Origin: a virus
IMG/VR virus record: IMGVR_UViG_3300021952_000016
Coordinates: 1 to 36,842 of that record
Strand: one strand, 5' to 3'
Length of the DNA stretch: 36,842 bases
Part shown: positions 8,155 to 28,994 of the stretch, piece by piece
How the letters are laid out: every line of letters begins with the position of its first letter
Position numbering within the stretch: position 1 is the stretch's first letter
Translations under genes and position numbers: made by a program
The notes under the pieces: generated by a model
What the model was told of the DNA's origin: nothing
Seen by the model: only the letters and a program-made list of their open reading frames with translations
Database searches by the model: none

Positions 8155-10086
8155 ATGCTTTGGTTAGATTTTGAAACCCGCAGCCGGTGTGATCTCCGCG
8201 AGCGGGGCGTGTACAACTACGCCCTCGACGGCTCGACCGACGTGCTGTGTATGTCCTATGCGTTCGACGATGACGACGTCCGCACATGGACGCCTGACAT
8301 GCCATTCCCCGAGGACGTGCGTCAATTCAAAGGCCAAATCCGCGCGCATAACGCCGCGTTCGAGCGTTTGATCTTTTGGCACGTCCTCGAGATCCCGTTC
8401 AAGCTCGAGCAGTTCTATTGCACCGCAGCACAAGCGCGTGCCAACTGCTTGCCCGGATCGCTCGAAGACATCGGGCGCGCGATTAGCGCGTCGATGAAGA
8501 AGGACCATCGCGGCAGTCAGCTCATTCGTTTGCTGTCGGTGCCGCGTGCCGACGGTACGTTCAACGAAGATCCCGCGCTGATGGCCGCGATGATCGCCTA
8601 TTGCGAACAGGACGTGCGCGCCATGCGGGCGATCAGCAAGGCCATGCGCGACCTCGCCGACGATGAGCTGCTCGACTACCACGTCAATGAGCAGATCAAC
8701 GACCGAGGCGTCCTTGTCGATCGGGCGCTCTGCGATGCTGCGGTGCGGTACGCAAGCGCAGAGTTGGAGGACATCCAGAAGATCGTCGCCGAGGTGACCG
8801 AGGGTGCGATCATGTCAGTCCGCAGTCCCAAGATGCGCGAGTGGGTGCTCGAGCGTGTCGGTGAGAAGGCCAAGGAGCTGATGGTCGTCTACAAGGACGG
8901 CGAGAAAAAATACAGCATCGACAAGTCCGTACGCGCTAATCTTCTAGCGATGGATGACCCCGACGAGGTGCCACCGGATGTCGAGGAAGTCATCCAGTGC
9001 GCCGACGATCTGTGGGCATCCTCAGTCGCCAAGTTCAGCCGCTTGGCCGGATTGGCCGACGAGGAGGACGACCGCGTCCGTGGCGCGTTTGTGTTCGCCG
9101 GCGGCTCGGCCACAGGCCGCGCGTCATCCTACGGCGCGCAAGTCCACAACTTCACCCGCAAGTGCGCCAAGGAGCCCGACAACGTCCGACAGGCGATGGT
9201 GCGCGGCCATGAGATCGTGCCGAAGTATGGCAAGCGCGTCACCGACGTTTTGAAGGGCATGCTACGCCCCGCGATCATCCCCGCTGACGGTCACGCGCTC
9301 GTCGTGGCCGATTGGTCGTCGATCGAAGCGCGCGTCACGCCTTGGCTCTCCAACTGCCCTGCGGGCGAGGCCAAGCTTGATCTCTTCGCGACCGGCAAGG
9401 ACGTCTACAAAGTCAACGCCTCGGCCACCTTCCGCGTGCCTGTCGAGGAGGTGTCCGACGACCAACGTCAGATCGGCAAGGTGCAAGAGCTTGCGTGCGG
9501 GTTTGCCGGCGGTGTCGGCGCGTTTGCCGCGATGGGCCGCGCCTATGGCATCGTGCTGCCCGAGAGCGAAGCGAAGCGCATGGTGGATGGATGGCGCAGA
9601 GCGAACGCATGGGCGATGCCGTACTGGCAGGGGCTCGAGAGCGCGTATCTGCGCGCCATGCGAAACAAGAACTACCCGATCTCGGTCGGACGTGTGACCT
9701 ATCTCTATGACGGCACGCACCTGTGGTACGCGCTGCCGTCAGGCCGCGTGTTGTGCTATCCTTACGCGCGCTTTGAGAATGACGAATTGACCTATCTCAA
9801 GGCCGCATGGAAGCCCGCACAAGATGCAAAAGAATGGCCGCGTGCCCGCTTGTGGCGCGGCCTTGCTTGTGAGAACATCACTCAAGCAACGGCCAATGAC
9901 CTGTTGCGTTACGCTCTTCGACAGGTCAACGCGGTGTTACATGTTCACGACGAAATTGTTCTGGAAACGTCACAGCCCGAAGAGGCTGCCGCCGAGTTGA
10001 AGCGCGTCATGACGACGCCGCCCAACTGGGCCGGAGGCTTGCCGCTTGCAGCGGAAGTCAAGATTATGCGGAGGTATGGAAAGTGA
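8122..10086 (+). CDS. Family A DNA polymerase with 3'-5' exonuclease
   Basis: The phage replicative polymerase, 654 residues from TTG 8122 or 643 from ATG 8155; neither start has a Shine-Dalgarno, and a TAG directly precedes the TTG in frame. Numbered from the TTG: Exo I is LDFET with D16/E18, Exo II is HNAAFE (76-81) and Exo III is YCEQD with Y160/D164. Polymerase motif A is VVADWSSIEARV with D397, motif B runs from R449 through K453 to GFAGG, and motif C is HVHDE with D610/E611. The position equivalent to E. coli Pol I Phe762 is Leu457. There is no 5'-3' exonuclease domain. The stop overlaps the next start (GTGA). Confidence 0.95.
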   Translation: MSDQIDAPVFPMLWLDFETRSRCDLRERGVYNYALDGSTDVLCMSYAFDDDDVRTWTPDMPFPEDVRQFKGQIRAHNAAFERLIFWHVLEIPFKLEQFYCTAAQARANCLPGSLEDIGRAISASMKKDHRGSQLIRLLSVPRADGTFNEDPALMAAMIAYCEQDVRAMRAISKAMRDLADDELLDYHVNEQINDRGVLVDRALCDAAVRYASAELEDIQKIVAEVTEGAIMSVRSPKMREWVLERVGEKAKELMVVYKDGEKKYSIDKSVRANLLAMDDPDEVPPDVEEVIQCADDLWASSVAKFSRLAGLADEEDDRVRGAFVFAGGSATGRASSYGAQVHNFTRKCAKEPDNVRQAMVRGHEIVPKYGKRVTDVLKGMLRPAIIPADGHALVVADWSSIEARVTPWLSNCPAGEAKLDLFATGKDVYKVNASATFRVPVEEVSDDQRQIGKVQELACGFAGGVGAFAAMGRAYGIVLPESEAKRMVDGWRRANAWAMPYWQGLESAYLRAMRNKNYPISVGRVTYLYDGTHLWYALPSGRVLCYPYARFENDELTYLKAAWKPAQDAKEWPRARLWRGLACENITQATANDLLRYALRQVNAVLHVHDEIVLETSQPEEAAAELKRVMTTPPNWAGGLPLAAEVKIMRRYGK

Positions 10087-10985
10087 AATTATTGGTTAGT
10101 TTTTCTGGCGGCGAAACGTCAGCTTACATGACTAAATGGATTTTAGAAAACTGGCGTGGGCGTTATTCTGAAATTTTGGTAGTTTTTGCAAATACAGGGC
10201 AAGAAAATGAGCAAACTCTTGAGTTTGTTCGTCAATGTGATGAGCATTTTGGATTTGGCACAGTATGGATTGAAGGAGTGCAATTTCAAAATGAACGTCG
10301 TTCGGCGGGTTTTAAGATAGTTGATTTTTATTCCGCGTCTCGTAATGGAGCGCCGTTCGAAGACGCAATTCGCAAGTATGGTATACCTAATCAAAAATTT
10401 AAGGATTGTACGCGTAATTTAAAACAAAAACCTATTGAGGCATATGCACAGTCTATGGGTTGGGAAAATAAATCATATGATTTGGCTATCGGCATTCGCA
10501 ATGACGAAATAGACCGCATTTCAATAGCGGCGCAACAGCGCCGTATTGTATACCCTTTAATTCACGATAACCCCATGACAAAGCCAAAAATTAATACTTG
10601 GTGGGCGGCGCAACCGTTTCGGCTTAAATTGAAAGGTTACCAAGGTAATTGCAAATGGTGTTGGAAAAAATCACTTCGCAAACATTTTACTATTATCAGT
10701 GAAAATCCTGAGTACTATGATTTTCCGCGCCGTATGGAACAACAATATGGTAAAATAGGGCCGGAATTTTTAAAAAATCCGCCACCTTCTTTTGAATACT
10801 CACGAACTTTTTTTCGCGGAAACAAAAGTGTAAAAGATCTTTTTACTGAATATGAACAAAAGAAAAATGTGTTTATTCCCGCTTACGACGAAGCAGCCAT
10901 ATTTGACCCCGATTTTGACGTGGGGGCCGGATGCGAAGAAAGTTGTGAAGTGTTTGCAGATGAGGATAAGGGAGAGGAACAATGA
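10083..10985 (+). CDS. PAPS reductase-like PP-loop protein
   Basis: A 300-residue adenine nucleotide alpha hydrolase-like protein. The PP-loop is SFSGGETSA (6-14), followed by FANTGQEN (35-42), Cys109 in DCTRNLKQKP, GIRNDE (137-142) and a Cys190-x2-Cys193 pair in GNCKWCWKK. Family members activate a substrate by adenylation, as in sulfate reduction, tRNA thiolation or DNA phosphorothioation (DndC). No partner of those pathways is present, so the substrate is unknown. The gene is visibly richer in A/T than both neighbours, suggesting separate acquisition, yet overlaps both of them by four bases (GTGA, ATGA), so it is fully built into the operon. Confidence 0.82.
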   Translation: MKLLVSFSGGETSAYMTKWILENWRGRYSEILVVFANTGQENEQTLEFVRQCDEHFGFGTVWIEGVQFQNERRSAGFKIVDFYSASRNGAPFEDAIRKYGIPNQKFKDCTRNLKQKPIEAYAQSMGWENKSYDLAIGIRNDEIDRISIAAQQRRIVYPLIHDNPMTKPKINTWWAAQPFRLKLKGYQGNCKWCWKKSLRKHFTIISENPEYYDFPRRMEQQYGKIGPEFLKNPPPSFEYSRTFFRGNKSVKDLFTEYEQKKNVFIPAYDEAAIFDPDFDVGAGCEESCEVFADEDKGEEQ

Positions 10986-13273
10986 ATTTCATTGAATACA
11001 TTGCGCGGATCGCGCCAGAAGGCGAGACGATCCTCTTCACCAAGCAGAAGCCCACAGGTGAGTTCCACGGCGACGGCGCGCTCAAATGCGTGTGGCCGGC
11101 TTATCTGCCGTCAAAGTACAAAGGCGACGCGGCATGGTACGCCAACACCGCGTGCTTTATCCTCGACCGTTTCAAGGACGGCAAGGTGTCAGCGGCTGCG
11201 TCTTATTGCGAGCGCGTCGCCTTCATGGTGCTCGATGACATCGGCACGAAGTCAAAGACACCGCCGATCGAACCGACATGGAAGATGGAGACATCGCCGG
11301 GCAACTATCAGTGGGGCTACACGTTCGGGCTCGACGATCAGCCACGCAAGGGTGAGTTCTCAGCCGCGATCAAGGCCATCGCCGAGGCGGGCTACACCGA
11401 CGGCGGCGCGATCAATCCGGTGCGTAATTTCAGACTGCCTGGGTCAATCAATCTGAAGCCTGGGCGCGATAATTTCCGCTCGGTCTTGGCCGAGTTCCAC
11501 CCCGAGCGCGAGTTCACGCTCGCCCAAATCTGCGAGGCTCTTGATGTCAAACCACACGAAGCAGACACCGCTAATATGTACCGCGTGCGGCTCGACGATG
11601 ACGGGCGCGATGACGTCCTCGCATGGATTTACGCGAGAGGTGAGATCGTCGAGCCTGCAAATGCCGAGGGGTGGTTCGGGATCGTCTGCCCTAATGCGTC
11701 AGAACATTCGGACGGTAACCCTACCGGTCGCTACCATCCACTTAATCGGTCCTACTGCTGCTTCCACGAGCATTGCGGTGACTGGAATAGTCGACGCTTC
11801 CTCAACTGGGTTTCTGAACAGGGCGGCCCTAAGCATGAGTACGGGCTACGCGATGAGCTAGTCGCGCAGACGATGCGCCAGACCTATGAAAAGATCAACC
11901 CGACCGAGGCGTTCCCTGACGCCGCCAAGGCGCTGATCGCCGAGGTCGAGCGCAAGGAGCTGGCCCGCATCGAGAAGTCCGAGTGGTACAAGCGCTTTGC
12001 CTACATCCAAGAGGACGAGAGCTTCTTCGACATGGTCGACCGCCGCGAGATCAGCCGCTCGACCTTCAACGCCCTCTTCCGCCACATCTCTTGTCAGTCG
12101 ATCCACAATGGTCGCCGCATCGAAGCGTCGGTGTGCTTCGACGAGAACCGTCAGGCGATGGGCGCGCGTACTCTTGTGAGCGTGACCTACTCCGCCGGCC
12201 AAGGCGTGCTCGTCACCAAGGACGGGCTTGTCTATGGCAACCGGTGGCGCGACGCCCGCCCGCATGAGTACGGCACGGGCGACGTGTCGCGGTGGCTCGA
12301 GCATGCCGCGCGCATGATCCCTAACGACGCCGAGCGCGAGCACATCTTCGACATGATGGCGTTCAAGCTCCAGAACCCCGACATCAAGATCAACCACGCC
12401 GTGTTGCATGGCGGCGATGAAGGTTCGGGCAAGGACACCTTCTGGGCCCCGTTCATCTGGTCGGTCTGCGGGCCTGACCTTCGCAATCGCGGGCTTGTCG
12501 ACAATGACAGCATATCGTCGTCGTGGGGCTACCATCTTGAAAGCGAGATCCTGATCATCAACGAATTGAAAGAGCCTGACGCGCGCGAGCGCCGCGCTCT
12601 GGCGAACAAACTGAAGCCGATCATCGCCGCACCGCCTGACACGCTGCCGATCAACCGCAAGGGTCTGCATCCGTATGACATGGTCAACCGCATGTTCGTG
12701 CTCGCGTTCTCTAACGATCCGGTTCCTATCTCGCTCGCGTCTCAGGACCGCCGGTGGTTCTGCATCTGGTCGCATGCCGATCGCATGAACGCGCGCGATG
12801 CCGCCGACATGTGGAAATGGTACAAGTCGGGCGGCTATCAGGACATCGCCGGATGGTTGAAACGCCGCGACGTGTCCAAGTTCAATCCGTCAGCGCCGCC
12901 CATGACGACCGAGTTCAAGATGAACCTGATCGAGCAGGGCATGACCATCGCCGAGAGCTATCTCTGCGAGATGATCCGGTCTCGCCAGGGCGAGTTCGCC
13001 AAGGGTGCCATCTCGTCGCCATTGCATGCGCTCTGTGACCGCCTGTCGGGCAGCGTCCCGCAAGGCACCAAGGTGCATCAGTCGGCGCTTCTGCATGCGC
13101 TCAAAGAGGCGGGCTGGGTCGATGTCGGCTACATCGCCTCGGGCGAGTACACGACCAAGAAGCACGTCTGGGTCGCGCCCGAGTTCAAGCGCCGGTCGAA
13201 GTCCGATCTGCGCCGCATGGTCGAGCCGGTGGCCGGCGGTAATGTCGTGGAATTGAAAAAGACCGCCCCGTAA
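10982..13273 (+). CDS. Bifunctional primase-helicase (AEP-like N-terminus, SF3/D5-like helicase)
   Basis: A 763-residue replication protein. The N-terminal part has VLDDIGTK (D85/D86) and VRNFRLPGSINLK, the pattern of archaeo-eukaryotic-type (RepB-like) primases. A likely zinc ribbon follows (C236, H242, C259/C260, H264, C265). The helicase part has Walker A GGDEGSGKDTF with K484, the acidic ILIINE (523-528) and the FSNDPVP sensor (576-582) seen in VapE/D5-like superfamily 3 helicases. It would prime synthesis and unwind DNA for the family A polymerase. It is the last gene of the rightward arm; its stop codon lies in the loop of a terminator hairpin. Confidence 0.88.
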   Translation: MNFIEYIARIAPEGETILFTKQKPTGEFHGDGALKCVWPAYLPSKYKGDAAWYANTACFILDRFKDGKVSAAASYCERVAFMVLDDIGTKSKTPPIEPTWKMETSPGNYQWGYTFGLDDQPRKGEFSAAIKAIAEAGYTDGGAINPVRNFRLPGSINLKPGRDNFRSVLAEFHPEREFTLAQICEALDVKPHEADTANMYRVRLDDDGRDDVLAWIYARGEIVEPANAEGWFGIVCPNASEHSDGNPTGRYHPLNRSYCCFHEHCGDWNSRRFLNWVSEQGGPKHEYGLRDELVAQTMRQTYEKINPTEAFPDAAKALIAEVERKELARIEKSEWYKRFAYIQEDESFFDMVDRREISRSTFNALFRHISCQSIHNGRRIEASVCFDENRQAMGARTLVSVTYSAGQGVLVTKDGLVYGNRWRDARPHEYGTGDVSRWLEHAARMIPNDAEREHIFDMMAFKLQNPDIKINHAVLHGGDEGSGKDTFWAPFIWSVCGPDLRNRGLVDNDSISSSWGYHLESEILIINELKEPDARERRALANKLKPIIAAPPDTLPINRKGLHPYDMVNRMFVLAFSNDPVPISLASQDRRWFCIWSHADRMNARDAADMWKWYKSGGYQDIAGWLKRRDVSKFNPSAPPMTTEFKMNLIEQGMTIAESYLCEMIRSRQGEFAKGAISSPLHALCDRLSGSVPQGTKVHQSALLHALKEAGWVDVGYIASGEYTTKKHVWVAPEFKRRSKSDLRRMVEPVAGGNVVELKKTAP

Positions 13274-13790: not shown

Positions 13791-13900
13791 TGCACTACTC
13801 CATCGATCACGATCTGCTGATACCAACGCTCGCCGTCCTCGCCTTCCCACAGAGCCCAGACATTGTCGTTCTCGTATTCGTACCTGATTAGTTTACGCAT
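13784..13900 (-). CDS. Small hypothetical protein, 38 residues
   Basis: A 38-codon frame, MRKLIRYEYENDNVWALWEG at its start, ending VIDGVVQW. GGAGG six bases before the ATG is one of the best ribosome binding sites in the operon, and the stop overlaps the next start by seven bases. The Tyr/Trp-rich sequence looks like a small folded beta protein. No family recognised. Confidence 0.6.
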   Translation of the reverse strand: MRKLIRYEYENDNVWALWEGEDGERWYQQIVIDGVVQW

Positions 13901-14072
13901 CGCTTTCCTCCGTTATCACTTCACGTTCCGACAATACTTCTTTCCACGGACGCGGGTCATAAGCTTCTTTATCGGTAGCGTTCCAATACTTCTTGCGCCA
14001 AAACACACGGGTGGTTTCCAATGAGCTATCTGGCATTTGATTTAGATATAACATAAATGCAAAACCCAACAT
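13893..14072 (-). CDS. Small hypothetical protein
   Basis: A 59-residue protein whose ATG at 14072 overlaps the preceding stop (TAATG). An internal ATG at 14036 gives MPDSSLETTRVFW and may be the true start, since the extra twelve residues are hydrophobic and unlike the rest. The core (KYWNATDKEAYDPRPWKEVL) resembles small proteins of other phages. The stop overlaps the next start by eight bases. Function unknown. Confidence 0.6.
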   Translation of the reverse strand: MLGFAFMLYLNQMPDSSLETTRVFWRKKYWNATDKEAYDPRPWKEVLSEREVITEESDA

Positions 14073-14311
14073 TACTCACCCAATGCGGCGCGTGCTGTGC
14101 GCCCGTTGTCTAGCTGCGGTTGCAAGTCGACCGTGATGATCGGCACAAAGACCGTCGACTGATCGACTTGAATGTAGTTTTCCATGTCGGCGTAGAAGCG
14201 CAGGGCTTTGCGTAGCTTCTCATTGTTTTCCGTCAGATATTCAGACAAATCTTGCGCGGCTTTTAGATCGCTCATCAATCTGTTGATGACGGTTTCTATT
14301 TCTCTGTCCAT
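14072..14311 (-). CDS. Coiled-coil small protein, array member
   Basis: A 79-residue protein with a helical N-terminal half (INRLMSDLKAAQDL, then NEKLRKALRFYADM) and tail TARAALGE. The start ATG at 14311 forms a TGATG junction with the upstream gene, with GGAGGA just before it. It belongs to an array of similar small genes with near-identical tails and junctions. Function unknown. Confidence 0.65.
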   Translation of the reverse strand: MDREIETVINRLMSDLKAAQDLSEYLTENNEKLRKALRFYADMENYIQVDQSTVFVPIITVDLQPQLDNGRTARAALGE

Positions 14312-14568
14312 CACTCGTCCTCCCTCAGCGCGTCATGGGCAATTTCAATCGCTTCCCAATCTTGCGAATGATATTCAATCTTCTTCAACGCTTCCCGCAA
14401 CCGCTCAATCTTATTGGCAAACTTATCCGCAACAGCTTCAAGTTGATCAATATAATCCTGCACGACATACACATCGTCCATGCTGAATGAAGCTTCTTTA
14501 CCAAATGCGCCGTAAGATGACTCATAGTTGGCAAGAGCCATTTTTGCTTCGGTTCTTAATTCATTCAT
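14311..14568 (-). CDS. Coiled-coil small protein, array member
   Basis: An 85-residue protein starting MNELRTEAKMAL at 14568 (TGATG junction); the frame extends to 14706 but that part overlaps the membrane protein gene upstream. It is helical throughout, with FANKIERLREALKKIEYH near 55-72 and tail HDALREDE. The last codons (GAGGGAGGACGAG) supply the ribosome binding site of the next gene. Function unknown. Confidence 0.68.
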   Translation of the reverse strand: MNELRTEAKMALANYESSYGAFGKEASFSMDDVYVVQDYIDQLEAVADKFANKIERLREALKKIEYHSQDWEAIEIAHDALREDE

Positions 14569-14720
14569 CACTCGCTCTCTTTCCGTGCGGCGCGACGCTC
14601 TTTTATAACTTCCATCATTGCCCAAATTAAAAAACCGACGAAAATGACGCCAAGTGTTATTGCCGCCATTATCAATTCGGCAATCGTTTTGCTGAGCCAG
14701 AACCATATATAATCAATCAT
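14568..14720 (-). CDS. Small membrane protein, 50 residues
   Basis: A 50-residue protein, MIDYIWFWLSKTIAELIM at its start, with one strong membrane segment (about residues 18-36, ending GVIFVGFLIW) and a basic tail ERRAARKESE. The positive C-terminal tail predicts an N-out, C-in orientation. It is flanked on both sides by TGATG junctions within the coiled-coil array, which supports its reality. Function unknown. Confidence 0.65.
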   Translation of the reverse strand: MIDYIWFWLSKTIAELIMAAITLGVIFVGFLIWAMMEVIKERRAARKESE

Positions 14721-14953
14721 CACTCACCATCCTTCAGCGCGGCGCTTTCAACACTCAATAACTGGAAAACCTTATCTTTGAACAGTTTATGATTTTTATG
14801 CGCTTCATCTAACCATCTTGATTGCATGACATTGACTTTCCGCAACCGATCACGCTCCTTACGGAGCAACTTAATTTCGTTTATTGCATCAACAACGACA
14901 TCATATTCTTTATTACCCAAACGTAATTCCCCTAACCGTTCAACTATATCCAT
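14720..14953 (-). CDS. Coiled-coil small protein, array member
   Basis: A 77-residue protein, MDIVERLGELRLGNKEYDVV at its start, with a strongly charged coiled coil (LLRKERDRLRKV, about 29-40) and tail ESAALKDGE. The ATG at 14953 follows GGAGGGCGAG and overlaps the upstream stop (TGATG). It shares tail and junction with its neighbours. Function unknown. Confidence 0.68.
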   Translation of the reverse strand: MDIVERLGELRLGNKEYDVVVDAINEIKLLRKERDRLRKVNVMQSRWLDEAHKNHKLFKDKVFQLLSVESAALKDGE

Positions 14954-15219
14954 CACTCGCCCTCCTTCAGCGCGGCACGGGCTAAATCAACAAACTGATT
15001 AAGCAACTCAAGCGGTTCACCTTCATGTGGTGGACCATAACCAATCACACGCAACGCTTCCTGATACCGTATTGCTCTTCCAGTATCTTTTGCGTTGTCT
15101 ATGGCAAGTGATGCCATACGGTCGCAATGTTCCCGCAACCGCTCAATCTCGGCGTTCTTTTCCGCGAGCAAATGCCTCACCTGATTTAGCGTCTCGTCTA
15201 CTGACCAGAATTTTCCCAT
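14953..15219 (-). CDS. Coiled-coil small protein, array member
   Basis: An 88-residue protein, MGKFWSVDETLNQVRHLLAE at its start, with AEIERLREHCDRM (about 23-35), a YQEALRVIGYGPPHEGEPL middle and tail LARAALKEGE. Such proteins with an IERLRE helix and an ARAAL tail are frequent in alphaproteobacterial phages. The codons for ALKEGE make a GGAGGGCGAG ribosome binding site for the next gene. Function unknown. Confidence 0.7.
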   Translation of the reverse strand: MGKFWSVDETLNQVRHLLAEKNAEIERLREHCDRMASLAIDNAKDTGRAIRYQEALRVIGYGPPHEGEPLELLNQFVDLARAALKEGE

Positions 15220-15422
15220 CACTCAATCTCCGTCATATTTAAAGCCCGCGCGGTGATTTTATTCGTTTGGACTTGGACGTCATCACTGCTGCAATATATT
15301 TCAAGCAGAGCTTTTCTGATTGCCACCGCGACCTCAAGCGCGTTGTCTCTCTGGCGCTCGGCCTCTGCCAACTGTCGCCGCAGTGTGATGATGTCATCGA
15401 CTAGGTCACGATCTGTTAGCAT
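15219..15422 (-). CDS. Coiled-coil small protein
   Basis: A 67-residue protein starting MLTDRDLVDDIITLRRQ at 15422, chosen because GGAG lies seven bases upstream; the frame extends to 15464 inside the neighbouring gene. A coiled coil (LRRQLAEAERQRDNALEVAV) fills the N-terminal half. The stop forms a TGATG junction with the next gene. It lacks the ALKEGE tail of the later array members. Function unknown. Confidence 0.65.
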   Translation of the reverse strand: MLTDRDLVDDIITLRRQLAEAERQRDNALEVAVAIRKALLEIYCSSDDVQVQTNKITARALNMTEIE

Positions 15423-15603
15423 CTTCTTGCTTCTCCATCCGGTCACGATATACCCACCCTTCATCCCACGCTTGGTGATTGATTGATCCAGCCTCGTGCG
15501 GGTTGTCCTCCCGCGCGAAGCCTAATTGACGACACTGCGCGCCCTCGGCCTTCTTCGTGGCAGGGCTCGCGACGACACGGCAAAAGTCAACGGTTGAGAG
15601 CAT
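15406..15603 (-). CDS. Small hypothetical protein
   Basis: A 65-residue protein with CRQLGFAREDNPHEAGSINH (about 24-43) followed by AWDEGW. This is the Cys-x-x-Gly-Phe/Tyr...Trp-x-x-Gly-Trp layout seen in small phage and ribosome modulation factor-like proteins. Similarity to the latter is only in pattern. It overlaps the upstream gene by 17 bases and the downstream gene by 17 bases. Confidence 0.6.
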   Translation of the reverse strand: MLSTVDFCRVVASPATKKAEGAQCRQLGFAREDNPHEAGSINHQAWDEGWVYRDRMEKQEDANRS

Positions 15604-15877
15604 TGATCAGGTCCAGTGCTTCTTGCGTGTCATTTTCCTCGACCTTCTCGGTCAGCTTCGCGTAGCCAATGACGTCTTGCCAGTGATCTTGGAAGTCGGG
15701 GTCGCCGCACAATATCCTGGCGAGCTTGACGGCGATCATCTCCAAGCTCTCCGCCTGTACGTCCGTTAGCCTGATCCAATTCGGGCTGCCCCTCATCGCG
15801 TCCTTGATCGACTGCGAGATTTTTGCTGTTGAAGGGTAAGAGCCGTGTGTTTTTTCGCGTGTTGATAATACTAACAA
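15587..15877 (-). CDS. DUF6378-like phage protein
   Basis: A 96-residue protein starting at TTG 15877, preceded by a perfect AGGAGG five bases upstream, which settles the start. REKTHGSYPSTAKISQSIKD, ESLEMIAVKLARILCGDPD and DHWQDVIGYAKL match the pattern I associate with DUF6378, a family of unknown function often near replication or nucleotide-related phage genes. The pattern (KTHG, helix, KxARI..GD, HW.D..GY) resembles MazG-like folds, but catalytic residues are not clear. Confidence 0.75.
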   Translation of the reverse strand: MLVLSTREKTHGSYPSTAKISQSIKDAMRGSPNWIRLTDVQAESLEMIAVKLARILCGDPDFQDHWQDVIGYAKLTEKVEENDTQEALDLINALNR

Positions 15878-15926
15878 GGTAGCCTCCTATTGTGATCCAA
15901 ATGATTAGTGTGATGGTGAGCAGCAT
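15630..15926 (-). CDS. Possible overlapping membrane protein frame (uncertain)
   Basis: A 98-codon frame from ATG 15926 begins with a strong membrane segment (MLLTITLIIWITIGGYLV, then SIINTRK). It then runs out of frame through most of the DUF6378-like gene as a low-complexity basic tail. The first 25 residues look like a genuine membrane microprotein, while the tail looks like a shadow of the other gene. The TTG and AGGAGG of the downstream gene lie inside its codons. Real only if the overlap is tolerated. Confidence 0.25.
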   Translation of the reverse strand: MLLTITLIIWITIGGYLVSIINTRKNTRLLPFNSKNLAVDQGRDEGQPELDQANGRTGGELGDDRRQARQDIVRRPRLPRSLARRHWLREADREGRGK

Positions 15927-16084
15927 ATCGCGTCTATCGCTCCCGCTCGCGATTGATGATGTGAGAGCCGGCCCTTGGCGGTGCACGCCCGCCATCGGTC
16001 CTTGCCTTTTATGACCCACCCCATCACGTTTCCGTTAACGTCAAGAATGACATAAGCCCCGATCCCGTCCGGTATGATCTTCAT
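15905..16084 (-). CDS. Small hypothetical protein, 59 residues
   Basis: A 59-residue protein, MKIIPDGIGAYVILDVNGNV at its start, then GWVIKGKDRWRA. AAGGGTGG lies just before the ATG, four bases after the stop of the DnaA-domain gene. The N-terminal half reads like a small beta hairpin; the C-terminal end is Cys/Ser/His-rich. No family recognised. It is too short for a 60-residue cutoff. Confidence 0.6.
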   Translation of the reverse strand: MKIIPDGIGAYVILDVNGNVMGWVIKGKDRWRACTAKGRLSHHQSRAGAIDAICCSPSH

Positions 16085-16087
16085 AGG

Positions 16088-16606
16088 TTACCACCCTTCT
16101 TTAGCGGGTCGTAAGCGGGCGCAATTAACGCCCGCAGGGCAGTGATCAACTGATCCAGACTGATCAGCCCGTCCCGACATTGTTGCACTAGATACTCGAT
16201 TTCGTTCAGCATAGACCTTCGCCCCATGTAGCACGGTTGTGTGGTCGCGCCCGCCCATCAGGTTCGCGATGCGTTTTAAACTATAGCCTGCTTCGCGCAG
16301 CCGATAGTAGGCCTCTTGCCGTGGCGGCAATAGGTTCGCCGTCTTGCGCCGTGAGTTGAGATCGTCACGCGTGACGTTGTGCTTCTCGCACACGTCCCGC
16401 AAGATCGTGAGCCACACGGGCGCGCCTTGATCCAGCCTATTGGCGATGATCATATGCGCCTCGGCCATCTGCGGGCCTAGGGGCTTAGGCTTTGGCGGTG
16501 GTGGTGGCGGTGGGTCTGGCGGTTTTGGTGGTGGCTCTGGCGACTTTGGCGGCGCGCCCGCATTAAGGCGCGCCCGCACCGCTTTATAGTGATCCGATAG
16601 GTTCAA
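16088..16606 (-). CDS. Stand-alone DnaA domain IV (DnaA-box-binding) protein
   Basis: A 172-residue protein with no AAA+ domain. After a short N-terminal helix comes a proline-rich linker (about 19-42). Residues 66-135 then match the DNA-binding domain IV of the initiator DnaA: LNSRRKTANLLPPRQEAYYR, a basic helix (YSLKRIANLMGG) and the signature GGRDHTTVLHG (118-128), which in DnaA reads the TTATCCACA box. The tail is Ser/Gly-rich. It starts at TTG 16606 after AGGGGG, overlapping the previous gene by 23 bases. It could occupy DnaA boxes on the host origin, or act at the phage's own boxes; both are inference. The domain call itself is strong. Confidence 0.88.
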   Translation of the reverse strand: MNLSDHYKAVRARLNAGAPPKSPEPPPKPPDPPPPPPPKPKPLGPQMAEAHMIIANRLDQGAPVWLTILRDVCEKHNVTRDDLNSRRKTANLLPPRQEAYYRLREAGYSLKRIANLMGGRDHTTVLHGAKVYAERNRVSSATMSGRADQSGSVDHCPAGVNCARLRPAKEGW

Positions 16607-16793
16607 GCCTGCCCCCTATAAATCGATGCGTCGGTTGATCCGGTGAGGGCGTCGCGCGCGTCGCCTTCACGAGCACCCATCGCCTGTAAAGATCATCGGC
16701 CCAGGCGCGCGCCTCGGTCTCGGTCTCAAAGCGCAACGCGTTATCCGACCATCGGCCCTCGCCCGTGTCGACTTCAGGTTTAAAACTCTTCAT
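16584..16793 (-). CDS. Small hypothetical protein
   Basis: A 69-residue protein with NALRFETETEARAWADDLYR (about 18-37), RRWVLVKATRATPSPDQPTH and tail GGRLEPIGSL. This resembles a common class of small phage proteins in which a strand-helix unit is followed by a strand. The start overlaps the upstream stop (ATGA). The last codons supply the G-rich ribosome binding site of the DnaA-domain gene. Confidence 0.65.
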   Translation of the reverse strand: MKSFKPEVDTGEGRWSDNALRFETETEARAWADDLYRRWVLVKATRATPSPDQPTHRFIGGRLEPIGSL

Positions 16794-18961: not shown

Positions 18962-19200
18962 GCTTCAATCCCCGCAATGTGTTGAATGAAATCGCGATCA
19001 AGATAAGCGCCGTGCTTCACATTATAACGGCCCATCCATAAATCGCGTTTGATTAGCTTTTTGCGGCGCATGAAATCAAAAACCGCGTTTGCGGTCACAT
19101 AGTCAATTTCGCCGAATTGGCATAAGGTTTCGATAAAATCATCAACCGCTTTCAATTCGCGGCGCGCAATATCTTGTGCGTGTTCAGAAAATTCGGTCAT
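18958..19200 (-). CDS. First gene of accessory operon; small possible winged-helix protein
   Basis: An 80-residue protein with a helical N-terminus (AQDIARRELKAVDDFIETLC) and a VTANAVFDFMRRKKLIKRDL stretch (about 35-54), followed by MGRYNVKHGAYLDRDFIQHI. The helix-basic helix-strand order could be a small winged helix, and its first place next to a repeat-rich control region would suit a regulator; this is a guess. AAGGA nine bases before the ATG is the ribosome binding site. Confidence 0.62.
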   Translation of the reverse strand: MTEFSEHAQDIARRELKAVDDFIETLCQFGEIDYVTANAVFDFMRRKKLIKRDLWMGRYNVKHGAYLDRDFIQHIAGIEA

Positions 19201-19271
19201 TTTGCGTTTCCTTTTTGGGCAATTCAGCTAACGAAAATCACAATAGATTTTGTTGCAGATTGAGCTAGTCA

Positions 19272-19305
19272 AAAAAACGCATGTCTGGCATGCAAAAAAC
19301 GCATG
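19272..19305. repeat. 12-bp direct repeat, 22-bp period
   Basis: AAAAAACGCATG occurs at 19272-19283 and again at 19294-19305, about two helical turns apart, with GCATG elements in the spacer. It lies just upstream of the accessory operon and could be a regulator site. Confidence 0.6.
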
Positions 19306-19379
19306 GATTTTGGCGCTTTGATTAGGCAAGTTTGCGAGGGGCTTTTACGGCTTTGAAATATAGGCTTTTTTCTTAATTC

Positions 19380-19397
19380 TTAGGCAATTTAGGCAAT
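19380..19397. repeat. Iteron-like pair, inverted orientation
   Basis: Two perfect contiguous copies of TTAGGCAAT, the complement of ATTGCCTAA. Diverged copies lie further left at 19215-19223 (TTGGGCAAT) and 19322-19330 (TTAGGCAAG). The pair sits immediately downstream of a candidate leftward promoter. Confidence 0.8.
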
Positions 19398-19409
19398 CTT
19401 ATTTATATA

Positions 19410-19438
19410 CGTATAATTTTTTGATGTGTATAGAACAA
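19410..19438 (-). promoter_or_regulatory. Candidate leftward promoter for the accessory operon
   Basis: On the - strand TTGTTC (19433-19438) is separated by 17 bases from TATACG (19410-19415), a moderate sigma-70-type match. On the + strand the same place carries a perfect TATAAT at 19412-19417, so a face-to-face promoter is also possible. The iteron pair at 19380-19397 would fall just past the leftward start, an operator position. Confidence 0.35.
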
Positions 19439-19472
19439 ATGTAGAACGTCGAACCGTAGCGATTTAAAACCG

Positions 19473-19499
19473 ATTGCCTAAATTGCCTAAACTGCCCAA
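19473..19499. repeat. Iteron-like triplet
   Basis: Two perfect copies of ATTGCCTAA (19473-19481, 19482-19490) followed in the same 9-bp phase by ACTGCCCAA (19491-19499). The start is 93 bases from the inverted pair at 19380 and 92 bases from the next pair at 19565. Confidence 0.8.
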
Positions 19500-19564
19500 A
19501 ACCCCGCGCCGTCATGCCGCGCGGTTCGAACCGACACGCAAGCGCAAAATCGATTTGTTTTTCG

Positions 19565-19582
19565 ATTGCCTAAATTGCCTAA
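19565..19582. repeat. Iteron-like pair
   Basis: Two perfect contiguous copies of ATTGCCTAA in the same orientation as the triplet at 19473. Confidence 0.8.
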
Positions 19583-19631
19583 ATAAGGCGCGCCAGGCGT
19601 CATGCAATTTTGCGTGAGCTTTGCCGGCCGT

Positions 19632-19674
19632 TATGCGTTTGCATAGTTCGCCAAACTGCTATGCGTTCGCATAG
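19632..19674. repeat. Paired palindromes, 28-bp centre spacing
   Basis: TATGCGTTTGCATAG (19632-19646) and TATGCGTTCGCATAG (19660-19674) differ at one base. The second, with its preceding C, is a 7-bp inverted repeat with a two-base centre. Two near-identical dyads at 28-bp spacing look like an operator pair for a dimeric regulator. Confidence 0.65.
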
Positions 19675-19687
19675 CTTTTCACGCTGC

Positions 19688-19705
19688 ATTGCCTAAATTG
19701 CATAG
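19688..19705. repeat. Iteron-like pair, second copy degenerate
   Basis: One perfect ATTGCCTAA (19688-19696) followed in phase by ATTGCATAG (19697-19705), two mismatches. Confidence 0.7.
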
Positions 19706-19762
19706 GTTTATTTTCCTAGGCTTTTATTCCTATTGCATTAGGGATTGCTAATATAATTGAGA

Positions 19763-19776
19763 GGGGGGTGGGGGGG
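19763..19776. other. G-rich tract
   Basis: Six G, one T and seven G in a row, followed by CCC, upstream of terS. It could form G-quadruplex-type structure or mark a packaging signal; long homopolymer runs are also prone to read error. Confidence 0.5.
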
Positions 19777-19809
19777 CCCGAGGCCGACCGGTCAAATTTC
19801 GGGTAGCCC

Positions 19810-19838
19810 TTGCAAAAATTTTTTTATTTTTTTATAAT
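19810..19838 (+). promoter_or_regulatory. Sigma-70-type promoter for the late genes
   Basis: TTGCAA (19810-19815), a 17-base AT-rich spacer and a perfect TATAAT (19833-19838). The expected transcription start, about seven bases after the -10, falls at the terS ATG (19846), so the mRNA would be leaderless or nearly so. Another perfect TATAAT is at 19752-19757 without a clear -35. Confidence 0.6.
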
Positions 19839-19845
19839 TTCGGGC

Positions 19846-26355: not shown

Positions 26356-27570
26356 ATGGGTAATAGCTTACTTACTATCGACATGATCACCCGCAAAGCT
26401 CTCGAAATTCTCGAGAACAACCTGGTGATCACCCGCAACGTGAACCGTCAGTACGACGACAGCTTTGCTGTCGAAGGTGCAAAGATCGGTTCAACCCTCC
26501 GCATCCGCTTGCCCGATCGTGCGCTCGTCACGGACGGCGCTGCATTGCAGGTTCAGGACGACAACGAACAGTACACCACGCTTACGGTTTCGAGCCAAAA
26601 GCACATTGGTGTCAACTTCACATCGGCTGAATTGACCATGCAGTTGGACGACTTCGCAGAACGTGTTCTCAAGCCGCGTATTTCGCAGCTTGCGTCCTCG
26701 GTCGATAACGACGTCGCCAATGCCTACAAGGGCATCTATCAGTCAGTCGGCACGCCCGGCACGACACCTTCGACATCGCTTGTTTTGCTTCAGGCTAACC
26801 AGAAGCTCAACGAAATGGCGTCGCCGATGCAGAACCGTTATGCCACCGTCAACCCAGCCGCAAACGCTGGTCTTGTCGAAGGCATGAAGGGTCTCTTCAA
26901 CCCAGTGTCGACAATCAGCAAGCAGTTCAAGAACGGCTTGATGGGCGAAGGCATTCTCGGCTTCGACGAAATGAGCATGTCTCAGTCGATCGTTCAGCAC
27001 ACCACTGGTACGCGTTCAGCTACAGCTTCGCTCACCATTGGCGCGACGATCTCGACACAGGGCGCGTCCGCAGTTGCCATCAACGGCGACACAGGCTCGG
27101 CCACGTTCAAGGTCGGCGACGTGTTCACGATCGCAGGCGTCTACGCAGTCAACCCACAGACCCGTCAGTCCACGGGCAGCCTCCAGCAGTTCGTCGTTAC
27201 GGCGGATGCTACGGCTTCCTCGGGCAACTGGTCTTCGGTCAGCATTTCGCCGGCAATCTATACGTCGTCGAACGCTCTTGCGACTGTCGACTCCTTCCCG
27301 CAGTCCGGCGCTGCCGTGACCGTGGTTGGTTCGGCTTCGACGACCTACCCGCAGAACCTCGCCTATCACCGCGATGCGATCACGTTCGCCACCGCCGACC
27401 TTTTGCTCCCGCAAGGCGTCGACATGGCTTCGCGTCAAGTCCACAACGGCATCTCGCTCCGTATCGTTCGTCAGTACGACATCAACAACGATCGTATGCC
27501 TTGCCGTATCGACGTGCTGTATGGCTACTCCACGATCCGCGCGCCTATGGCTGCTCGTATCTGGGGTTAA
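26356..27570 (+). CDS. Major capsid protein, P22 coat family
   Basis: A 404-residue coat protein with the HK97 fold as in P22 gp5. MITRKALEILENNLVITRNV near the start, FAVEGAKIGSTLRIRLPDR, the helix QLDDFAERVLKPRISQLASS, and GDVFTIAGVYAVNPQTRQST (about 255-274), which in P22 is the inserted domain region, support the family. P22 coat is 430 residues, so length fits. It forms the icosahedral head. A strong hairpin terminator follows, probably keeping coat expression high relative to the next genes. Confidence 0.92.
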   Translation: MGNSLLTIDMITRKALEILENNLVITRNVNRQYDDSFAVEGAKIGSTLRIRLPDRALVTDGAALQVQDDNEQYTTLTVSSQKHIGVNFTSAELTMQLDDFAERVLKPRISQLASSVDNDVANAYKGIYQSVGTPGTTPSTSLVLLQANQKLNEMASPMQNRYATVNPAANAGLVEGMKGLFNPVSTISKQFKNGLMGEGILGFDEMSMSQSIVQHTTGTRSATASLTIGATISTQGASAVAINGDTGSATFKVGDVFTIAGVYAVNPQTRQSTGSLQQFVVTADATASSGNWSSVSISPAIYTSSNALATVDSFPQSGAAVTVVGSASTTYPQNLAYHRDAITFATADLLLPQGVDMASRQVHNGISLRIVRQYDINNDRMPCRIDVLYGYSTIRAPMAARIWG

Positions 27571-28280: not shown

Positions 28281-28994
28281 ATGACGACGACCGCCGGTGA
28301 CCAGATCAACGCAGCCCTTCGCTTGATCGGCCAATTGGCCGAGTCTGAAGTTCCTACAGCCGCCGCGTCGCAAGATGCTCTTGCGGCGCTCAATCAGATG
28401 ATCGACTCTTGGAACACAGAGCGTCTGTCAGTCTTTACGACGATGGATCAAGTGTTTCTATGGCCCCCAGGGCAAATTAGCCAAACTCTTGGGCCGTCAG
28501 GCAACTTTGTTGGCGAACGTCCTATCATTATGGACGACGCGACCTATTTTATTGACCCGTCAAACAACATCTCGTTTGGCATCAAGATCATCAACCAACA
28601 ACAGTATGATGGCATCGCGGTTAAAACGGTGACCAGTACTTATCCACAGGTTATGTGGATAAATACCAACTACCCCGATGTTGACATCCACTTATACCCC
28701 GTGCCGACAAAAGTGCTTGAATGGCATTTTATCTCGGTTGACCCGCTTACTTCACCGGCAAATCTGTCGACCACGCTGGCATTTCCGCCGGGCTATCTGC
28801 GGGCGTTCAAATACAATTTGGCCTGTGAAATTGCGGCTGAATTTGGCGTTGAGCCGCCTCCGACCGTTCAGCGCATCGCCATGACATCAAAGCGTAACCT
28901 CAAGCGCATCAACAATCCTGATGACGTCATGTCGATCCCGTACTCGATCGTCGGCACACGTCAGCGGTTCAACGTGTACAGCGGCAACTTTTAG
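28281..28994 (+). CDS. Tail accessory / head completion protein, P22 gp4-like
   Basis: A 237-residue protein: DQINAALRLIGQLAESEVPT and ALAALNQMIDSWNTERLSV at the N-terminus, typical of P22 gp4-family adaptors that bind the portal ring. The middle has TYPQVMWINTNYPDVDIHLY and the C-terminus AMTSKRNLKRINNPDDVMS. It would close the head and join it to the tail. AAGGAG precedes the ATG. A perfect inverted pair of DnaA boxes lies inside the gene. Confidence 0.85.
   Translation: MTTTAGDQINAALRLIGQLAESEVPTAAASQDALAALNQMIDSWNTERLSVFTTMDQVFLWPPGQISQTLGPSGNFVGERPIIMDDATYFIDPSNNISFGIKIINQQQYDGIAVKTVTSTYPQVMWINTNYPDVDIHLYPVPTKVLEWHFISVDPLTSPANLSTTLAFPPGYLRAFKYNLACEIAAEFGVEPPPTVQRIAMTSKRNLKRINNPDDVMSIPYSIVGTRQRFNVYSGNF
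28640..28662. promoter_or_regulatory. Inverted pair of perfect DnaA boxes
   Basis: TTATCCACA at 28640-28648 faces TGTGGATAA at 28654-28662, five bases apart, within the gp4-like gene. The codons encode TYPQVMWIN, a plausibly conserved stretch, so a coding coincidence is possible. Confidence 0.5.

Follow-up and report, generated by a model that had tools for sequence, protein, structure and literature searches.

Why would a phage encode the DNA-reading domain of the replication initiator DnaA on its own? The question is raised by a gene on the minus strand (16088..16606) of the IMG/VR virus record IMGVR_UViG_3300021952_000016, the 36,842 bases of which, taken whole, we call the window. A first-pass annotation, made from the sequence alone, recognized a stand-alone DnaA domain IV protein at this locus and suggested that it might block or redirect initiation at host origin boxes or recruit the host replisome to phage DNA.

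The window encodes a P22-like portal, a terminase, DNA polymerase A, an SNF2 helicase, a PD-(D/E)XK exonuclease and a primase-helicase, and the domain IV gene sits within a cluster of small leftward genes that are probably early genes. A scan of the window for RNA families and tRNAs found none. A host search in genome collections returned two contigs only, both from an Opitutae MAG, and at least one of the two (L239) is phage-like. The PAPS-reductase-like gene at 10083-10985 has a GC content of about 0.41 compared with about 0.60 in its surroundings and is likely a recent acquisition. Upstream of the small terminase (TerS) gene, at 19761-19795, a G-run is followed by a partly conserved G-rich block with GGTCA; the same arrangement, a possible packaging site, is found 5' of TerS in L061, L080, L092, L108 and L127.

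A stand-alone DnaA domain IV protein in a phage genome

The 172 aa protein starts with a TTG codon, a start supported by the ATG found in the same position in the relatives L002 and L003, and by an AGGGGG (16612..16617, minus strand) read directly 5 nt upstream of the TTG, where it could plausibly bind the ribosome. Domain IV spans residues 63-137 (16196..16420, minus strand). Pfam Bac_DnaA_C (PF08299) matches residues 67-130 with an E-value of 4.8e-16 and 59 bits, compared to the curated cut-off of 31.5, and the structure of E. coli DnaA domain IV on its box (1j1v) matches the protein with an E-value of 1.3e-7. AlphaFold2 predicts, in order, a helix (residues 3-15), a linker, a second helix (45-57) and domain IV (64-135), the last of these with pLDDT mostly above 90. 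When the predicted fold was searched with Foldseek, the best eight PDB neighbours were all DnaA, including the box-bound structures 1j1v and 3pvp; the structural comparison that the first-pass annotation had proposed thus agrees with its assignment. Domain IV is under purifying selection (dN 0.02 and dS 0.26 in the comparison with L002; dN 0.10 and dS 0.67 with L003).

The remainder of DnaA is missing. The NCBIfam DnaA model reaches 47 bits where its cut-off is 344, with the match limited to model positions 350-415 of 437, and the protein contains neither DnaA domain I nor the AAA+ ATPase domain III. By sequence alignment, the box-reading signature GGRDHTTVLHG is present at residues 118-128 (16223..16255, minus strand). 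The claim that this signature had been kept in the absence of the ATPase and oligomerization domains is therefore borne out. The positions aligned to E. coli R407, Q408, D433, H434, T435 and T436 are unchanged, and lysines replace R399 and P423; we take all eight to be base-contacting positions of the 1j1v structure. We infer that domain IV docks on DnaA-box-like 9-mers; given the two lysines, the site of the window protein may differ from TTATCCACA.

The C-terminal tail, residues 138-172 (16091..16195, minus strand), is probably non-functional in the domain IV frame: over the last ~35 residues, dN exceeds dS in the comparison with L003 (0.69 and 0.18, respectively). The tail appears unselected because the same DNA is occupied by a conserved 43-aa ORF (MLNEIEYLVQQCRDGLISLDQLITALRALIAPAYDPLKKGGNL; 16081..16212, minus strand) that is read in another frame and overlaps the domain IV gene at its 3' end. 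This ORF is kept in L002, L003 and L050, with dN/dS of about 0.1-0.2 (dN 0.23 and dS 2.3 for L003). Its C-terminal (F/Y)(D/N)P..GDL motif forms an in-frame fusion with domain IV in L268 and L306.

The N-terminal helix and a widespread phage family

The first-pass annotation described a proline-rich linker that replaces the rest of DnaA. Such a linker is indeed present (residues 18-43; 16478..16555, minus strand), varying in length and sequence among relatives, but the conserved helix that precedes it was overlooked. This N-terminal helix (residues 3-15, LSDHYKAVRARLN; 16562..16600, minus strand; AlphaFold2 pLDDT ~86) is a family signature and a probable docking peptide. Its consensus, LxxHYKAVRARL, is the most conserved part of the protein, above domain IV: the 9 residues HYKAVRARL are identical in L050, L131, L104 and others, the domain IV sequences of which are 34-48% identical. 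Close relatives have the same layout as the window protein.

To follow the helix beyond close relatives, viral contigs were scanned with degenerate DNA encoding HYKAVRARL, with domain IV left out of the query. The scan detected 106 viral contigs; among the 79 HYKAVRARL ORFs examined, which comprise 54 distinct proteins at 90% identity, domain IV was present in 77, and the remaining two were short fragments. Because domain IV was not part of the query, this result shows the helix and domain IV to be one fixed pair. With its LxxHYKAVRxRL N-terminal helix, variable linker and domain IV, the window protein belongs, by sequence, to a widespread phage family built of a docking helix, a variable linker and domain IV. 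Many of these phages probably infect Alphaproteobacteria, as suggested by the GcrA genes in many HYKAVRARL contigs; GcrA is conserved in Alphaproteobacteria (PMC7403470).

The first-pass annotation considered the protein a candidate for an undescribed mechanism. The protein does have known counterparts: stand-alone domain IV proteins are already known, and both the PHROGs and a Rhizobium phage include proteins annotated as DnaA-like. The phage family defined by helix, linker and domain IV, for which no description as such was found in the literature searched, is the real finding here.

DnaA boxes and the probable origin in the window

The window contains five exact TTATCCACA boxes compared with 0.12 expected, all of them inside coding sequence. 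The 4769/4781 pair is unconserved in relatives, and the carriers G019 and G021 lose the 28640/28654 boxes via synonymous codons. Phages without the domain IV gene are box-rich, too (13 boxes compared with 2.4 expected). We therefore rejected the window boxes as cognate phage sites, given that they are coding, unconserved among carriers, and in excess in non-carriers as well. The distant phages with domain IV that were collected first, L004-L019, contain zero TTATCCACA boxes, and a search of the window for a DnaA box at a promoter gave no convincing case. The palindromic box pair 28640/28654 (window 28640-28662), in a tail gene, encodes the conserved peptide STYPQVMWIN; the pair, present again in G052, is accounted for by coding.

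A different repeat marks what is probably the phage origin. Copies of the 9-mer TTGCCTAAA, often in head-to-tail pairs, adjoin an AT-rich run and form an array at 19322-19697, inside 19200-19845, the sole long intergenic region of the window. In relatives from the genus of the window phage, the equivalent site harbors arrays of other 9-mers, including TTGTCCACA, TTGCCTACA and TTGTAGTCA. The domain IV gene was found in 3 of the 50 relatives searched, some of which are partial records, and most phages with an array lack it. Across relatives, the array 9-mer varies with the wing of the C-terminal winged helix of the primase-helicase (10982-13273): wings of the form KSRE-Y/F/H-D pair with CCACA-type boxes in differing backgrounds, and YSREYTT pairs with TTGCCTACA. 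In a Mantel test that used automatically called motifs, the partial correlation between array and winged helix, controlling for TerS, was 0.58, with 0 of 2000 permutations as high, compared to -0.20 between array and TerS. Wing and 9-mer thus read as a natural specificity code, and because the array sequence follows the wing, the likely initiator of the phage is its own primase-helicase. When the primase C-terminus was compared with known folds by Foldseek, weak winged-helix matches only were returned, and no P4-alpha-type origin-binding domain was identified.

The TTGCCTAAA array was also considered as the cognate site of domain IV and rejected, since phages that lack the gene have arrays, too, and the array sequence goes with the winged helix of the primase-helicase. 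The small terminase was dismissed as the array binder: phages whose TerS proteins are 98-100% identical have different arrays. In L003, a second repeat family of the GTGTCAAAAATTTGACG type, with about 15 copies at 1556-1705, adjoins the 9-mer array.

GcrA-like neighbours and promoter boxes in related phages

Outside the window, the neighbourhoods of the domain IV genes are informative. In 34 of the 91 family loci, a partly redundant set, a GcrA-like gene lies no more than about 1.5 kb away, always on the strand of the domain IV gene (34 of 34); these neighbours cover 21 of the 54 distinct proteins. In control phage DNA (235 loci, 2.83 Mb), GcrA-like genes yielded 2 hits. Five of the seven neighbour genes scanned match Pfam GcrA (PF07750) at the C-terminal positions 98-149 of 155 only, and three of these five exceed the curated cut-off. 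The C-terminal domain of GcrA (residues 108-173) binds sigma2, and DNA is bound by residues 1-45 (PMC7403470). A GcrA-like gene was sought in the window and is absent there. It is likewise missing from many family members with the same HYKAVRARL helix, which argues that the partner of the helix is a host protein. L138 and L224 (G051), which belong to the genus of the window phage and in which no domain IV gene was detected, encode a GcrA-like protein that has an HTH at its N-terminus.

The related contigs G072, G091 and G074 carry both the domain IV gene and a GcrA-like gene. In these three contigs, one class of sigma70-like promoters has 10 members, 7 of which carry a box (TTATCCACA with at most one mismatch) located 23, 34 or 44 bp 5' of the -35 hexamer; of 200 random stretches, 1 has a box placed in this way. 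The spacing changes in steps of 10-11 bp, a helical turn of DNA, as one would expect for an activator. With a stricter promoter scan, the pattern was recovered in part only. Host DnaA could be the binder at these boxes. In G072 (13846-16450, L345) and G091 (26594-27486, L360), a repeated promoter class combines a DnaA box with TTGACAGGCGAA..TTCG; some copies include a hairpin, and many precede genes starting with MEIDM.

Possible functions of the domain IV protein

We are inclined, with somewhat better than even confidence, to view the domain IV protein as a small, two-ended phage transcription factor that steers host RNA polymerase to box-carrying promoters. At one end, domain IV would dock on the 9-mers; at the other end, the N-terminal helix would contact a conserved partner in the host, in the simplest case sigma70/RNA polymerase, with the flexible linker joining the two. 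The protein would thus bring host RNA polymerase to promoters, of the phage or of the host, that bear a DnaA-box-like 9-mer. In many relatives, a nearby gene would add a second sigma70 contact in the form of the GcrA sigma-interacting domain; given that the window phage has no such gene, the helix alone, or host GcrA, would make the sigma contact. Since both the GcrA gene and the promoter boxes are absent in the window, we infer the transcription role of the window protein from its relatives. A bolder version, which we offer tentatively and consider rather doubtful, is a phage-made two-protein switch derived from alphaproteobacterial cell-cycle control: domain IV would read the boxes and a free GcrA domain would hold sigma70, placing RNA polymerase on phage promoters, with the window phage providing the DNA-reading half and the sigma contact being made by the host.

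Interference with host replication or the cell cycle, along the lines of the first-pass annotation, appears unlikely. Under this scenario, the protein would occupy boxes in the oriC of the host or in promoters under DnaA control and block or reset initiation, or else exert an HdaB-like effect on DnaA control. The retention of the presumed contact residues (R407, D433, H434, T435, T436) and the position of the gene among leftward, probably early genes are compatible with such a role. So is the report, as cited in PMC9632790, that overexpressed HdaB raised the copy number of some loci; these effects, however, have been reinterpreted as activation of gene transfer agents (PMC9632790). Furthermore, a passive competitor would need no helix that is more conserved than the DNA-binding domain, and the GcrA neighbours and promoter boxes favour transcription. 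As for the blocking of origin boxes, the DnaA boxes in the window are coding and unconserved, and the evidence from the family points instead to transcription at DnaA boxes.

The protein could alternatively act inside the phage program, as a repressor or timing regulator that occupies sites at phage promoters and dimerizes through the helix. This role, which we hold to be quite improbable, would suit a small DNA-binding protein whose gene sits among other small leftward genes, and in relatives boxes lie upstream of phage genes. Against it, the boxes are helically phased 5' of the -35 hexamer, in an activator-like position rather than over the promoter, and genes for sigma-contacting domains lie near the domain IV gene in many relatives. 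An accessory role in phage replication, with the protein binding the phage origin and helping to load the replisome, seems quite improbable as well. The phage does possess an origin-like TTGCCTAAA array next to an AT-rich stretch (19322-19697), but the array tracks the winged helix of the primase-helicase (partial Mantel r 0.58) and most phages with arrays lack the domain IV gene; the same observations speak against the recruitment of the replisome to phage DNA that the first-pass annotation had envisaged.

If the transcription factor interpretation is correct, a broad phage family has turned the DNA-reading domain of a replication initiator into a transcription factor, and the near-invariant peptide points to one conserved host target. 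The disputed role of HdaB/GafY-like domain IV proteins, in replication or in transcription, would then become testable, and phages with DnaA boxes phased 5' of promoters would be a clean test system.

Comparison with known systems

Among phage proteins, PHROG 27829 ('DnaA-like replication initiation protein') and EVB88_078 of Rhizobium phage RHph_N28_2, annotated as 'DnaA-like domain-containing', possess a DnaA C-terminal domain like that of the window protein. The window protein had no match to PHROG 27829 at E <= 0.01; of the 16 aligned members, 3 match it at this level. With DnaA itself, the window protein shares the domain IV fold, the GGRDHTT signature and most base-contact residues, and differs from it in the absence of domains I-III and, accordingly, of the AAA+ ATPase. 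The sigma70 cofactor GcrA provides another point of comparison: a gene for its sigma-interacting domain adjoins the domain IV gene in the 34 related loci, not in the window, and most of the GcrA-like neighbours examined consist of this domain only and lack the part of GcrA that binds DNA. The phiCbK-like phages encode GcrA, too (PMC3556154).

A further parallel in published descriptions is with the GafY/HdaB-type regulators, which, like the window protein, contain domain IV without the ATPase. GafY (= HdaB, CCNA_01111), the DnaA-domain-IV homologue of Caulobacter, binds domains 3-4 of RpoD and activates a phage-like gene transfer agent cluster, and was argued by Gozzi et al. not to act on oriC (PMC9632790, PMC11150451). 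For a similar sigma70 contact of the window protein, the GcrA sigma-domain genes close to the domain IV gene in relatives provide indirect evidence. GafY/HdaB, along with GafA of Rhodobacter capsulatus, resembles the window protein in being a stand-alone domain IV homologue linked to a phage-like element. Unlike the window protein, GafY is host-encoded, together with gafZ, and its site is an ACTATG element that is not described as a DnaA box.
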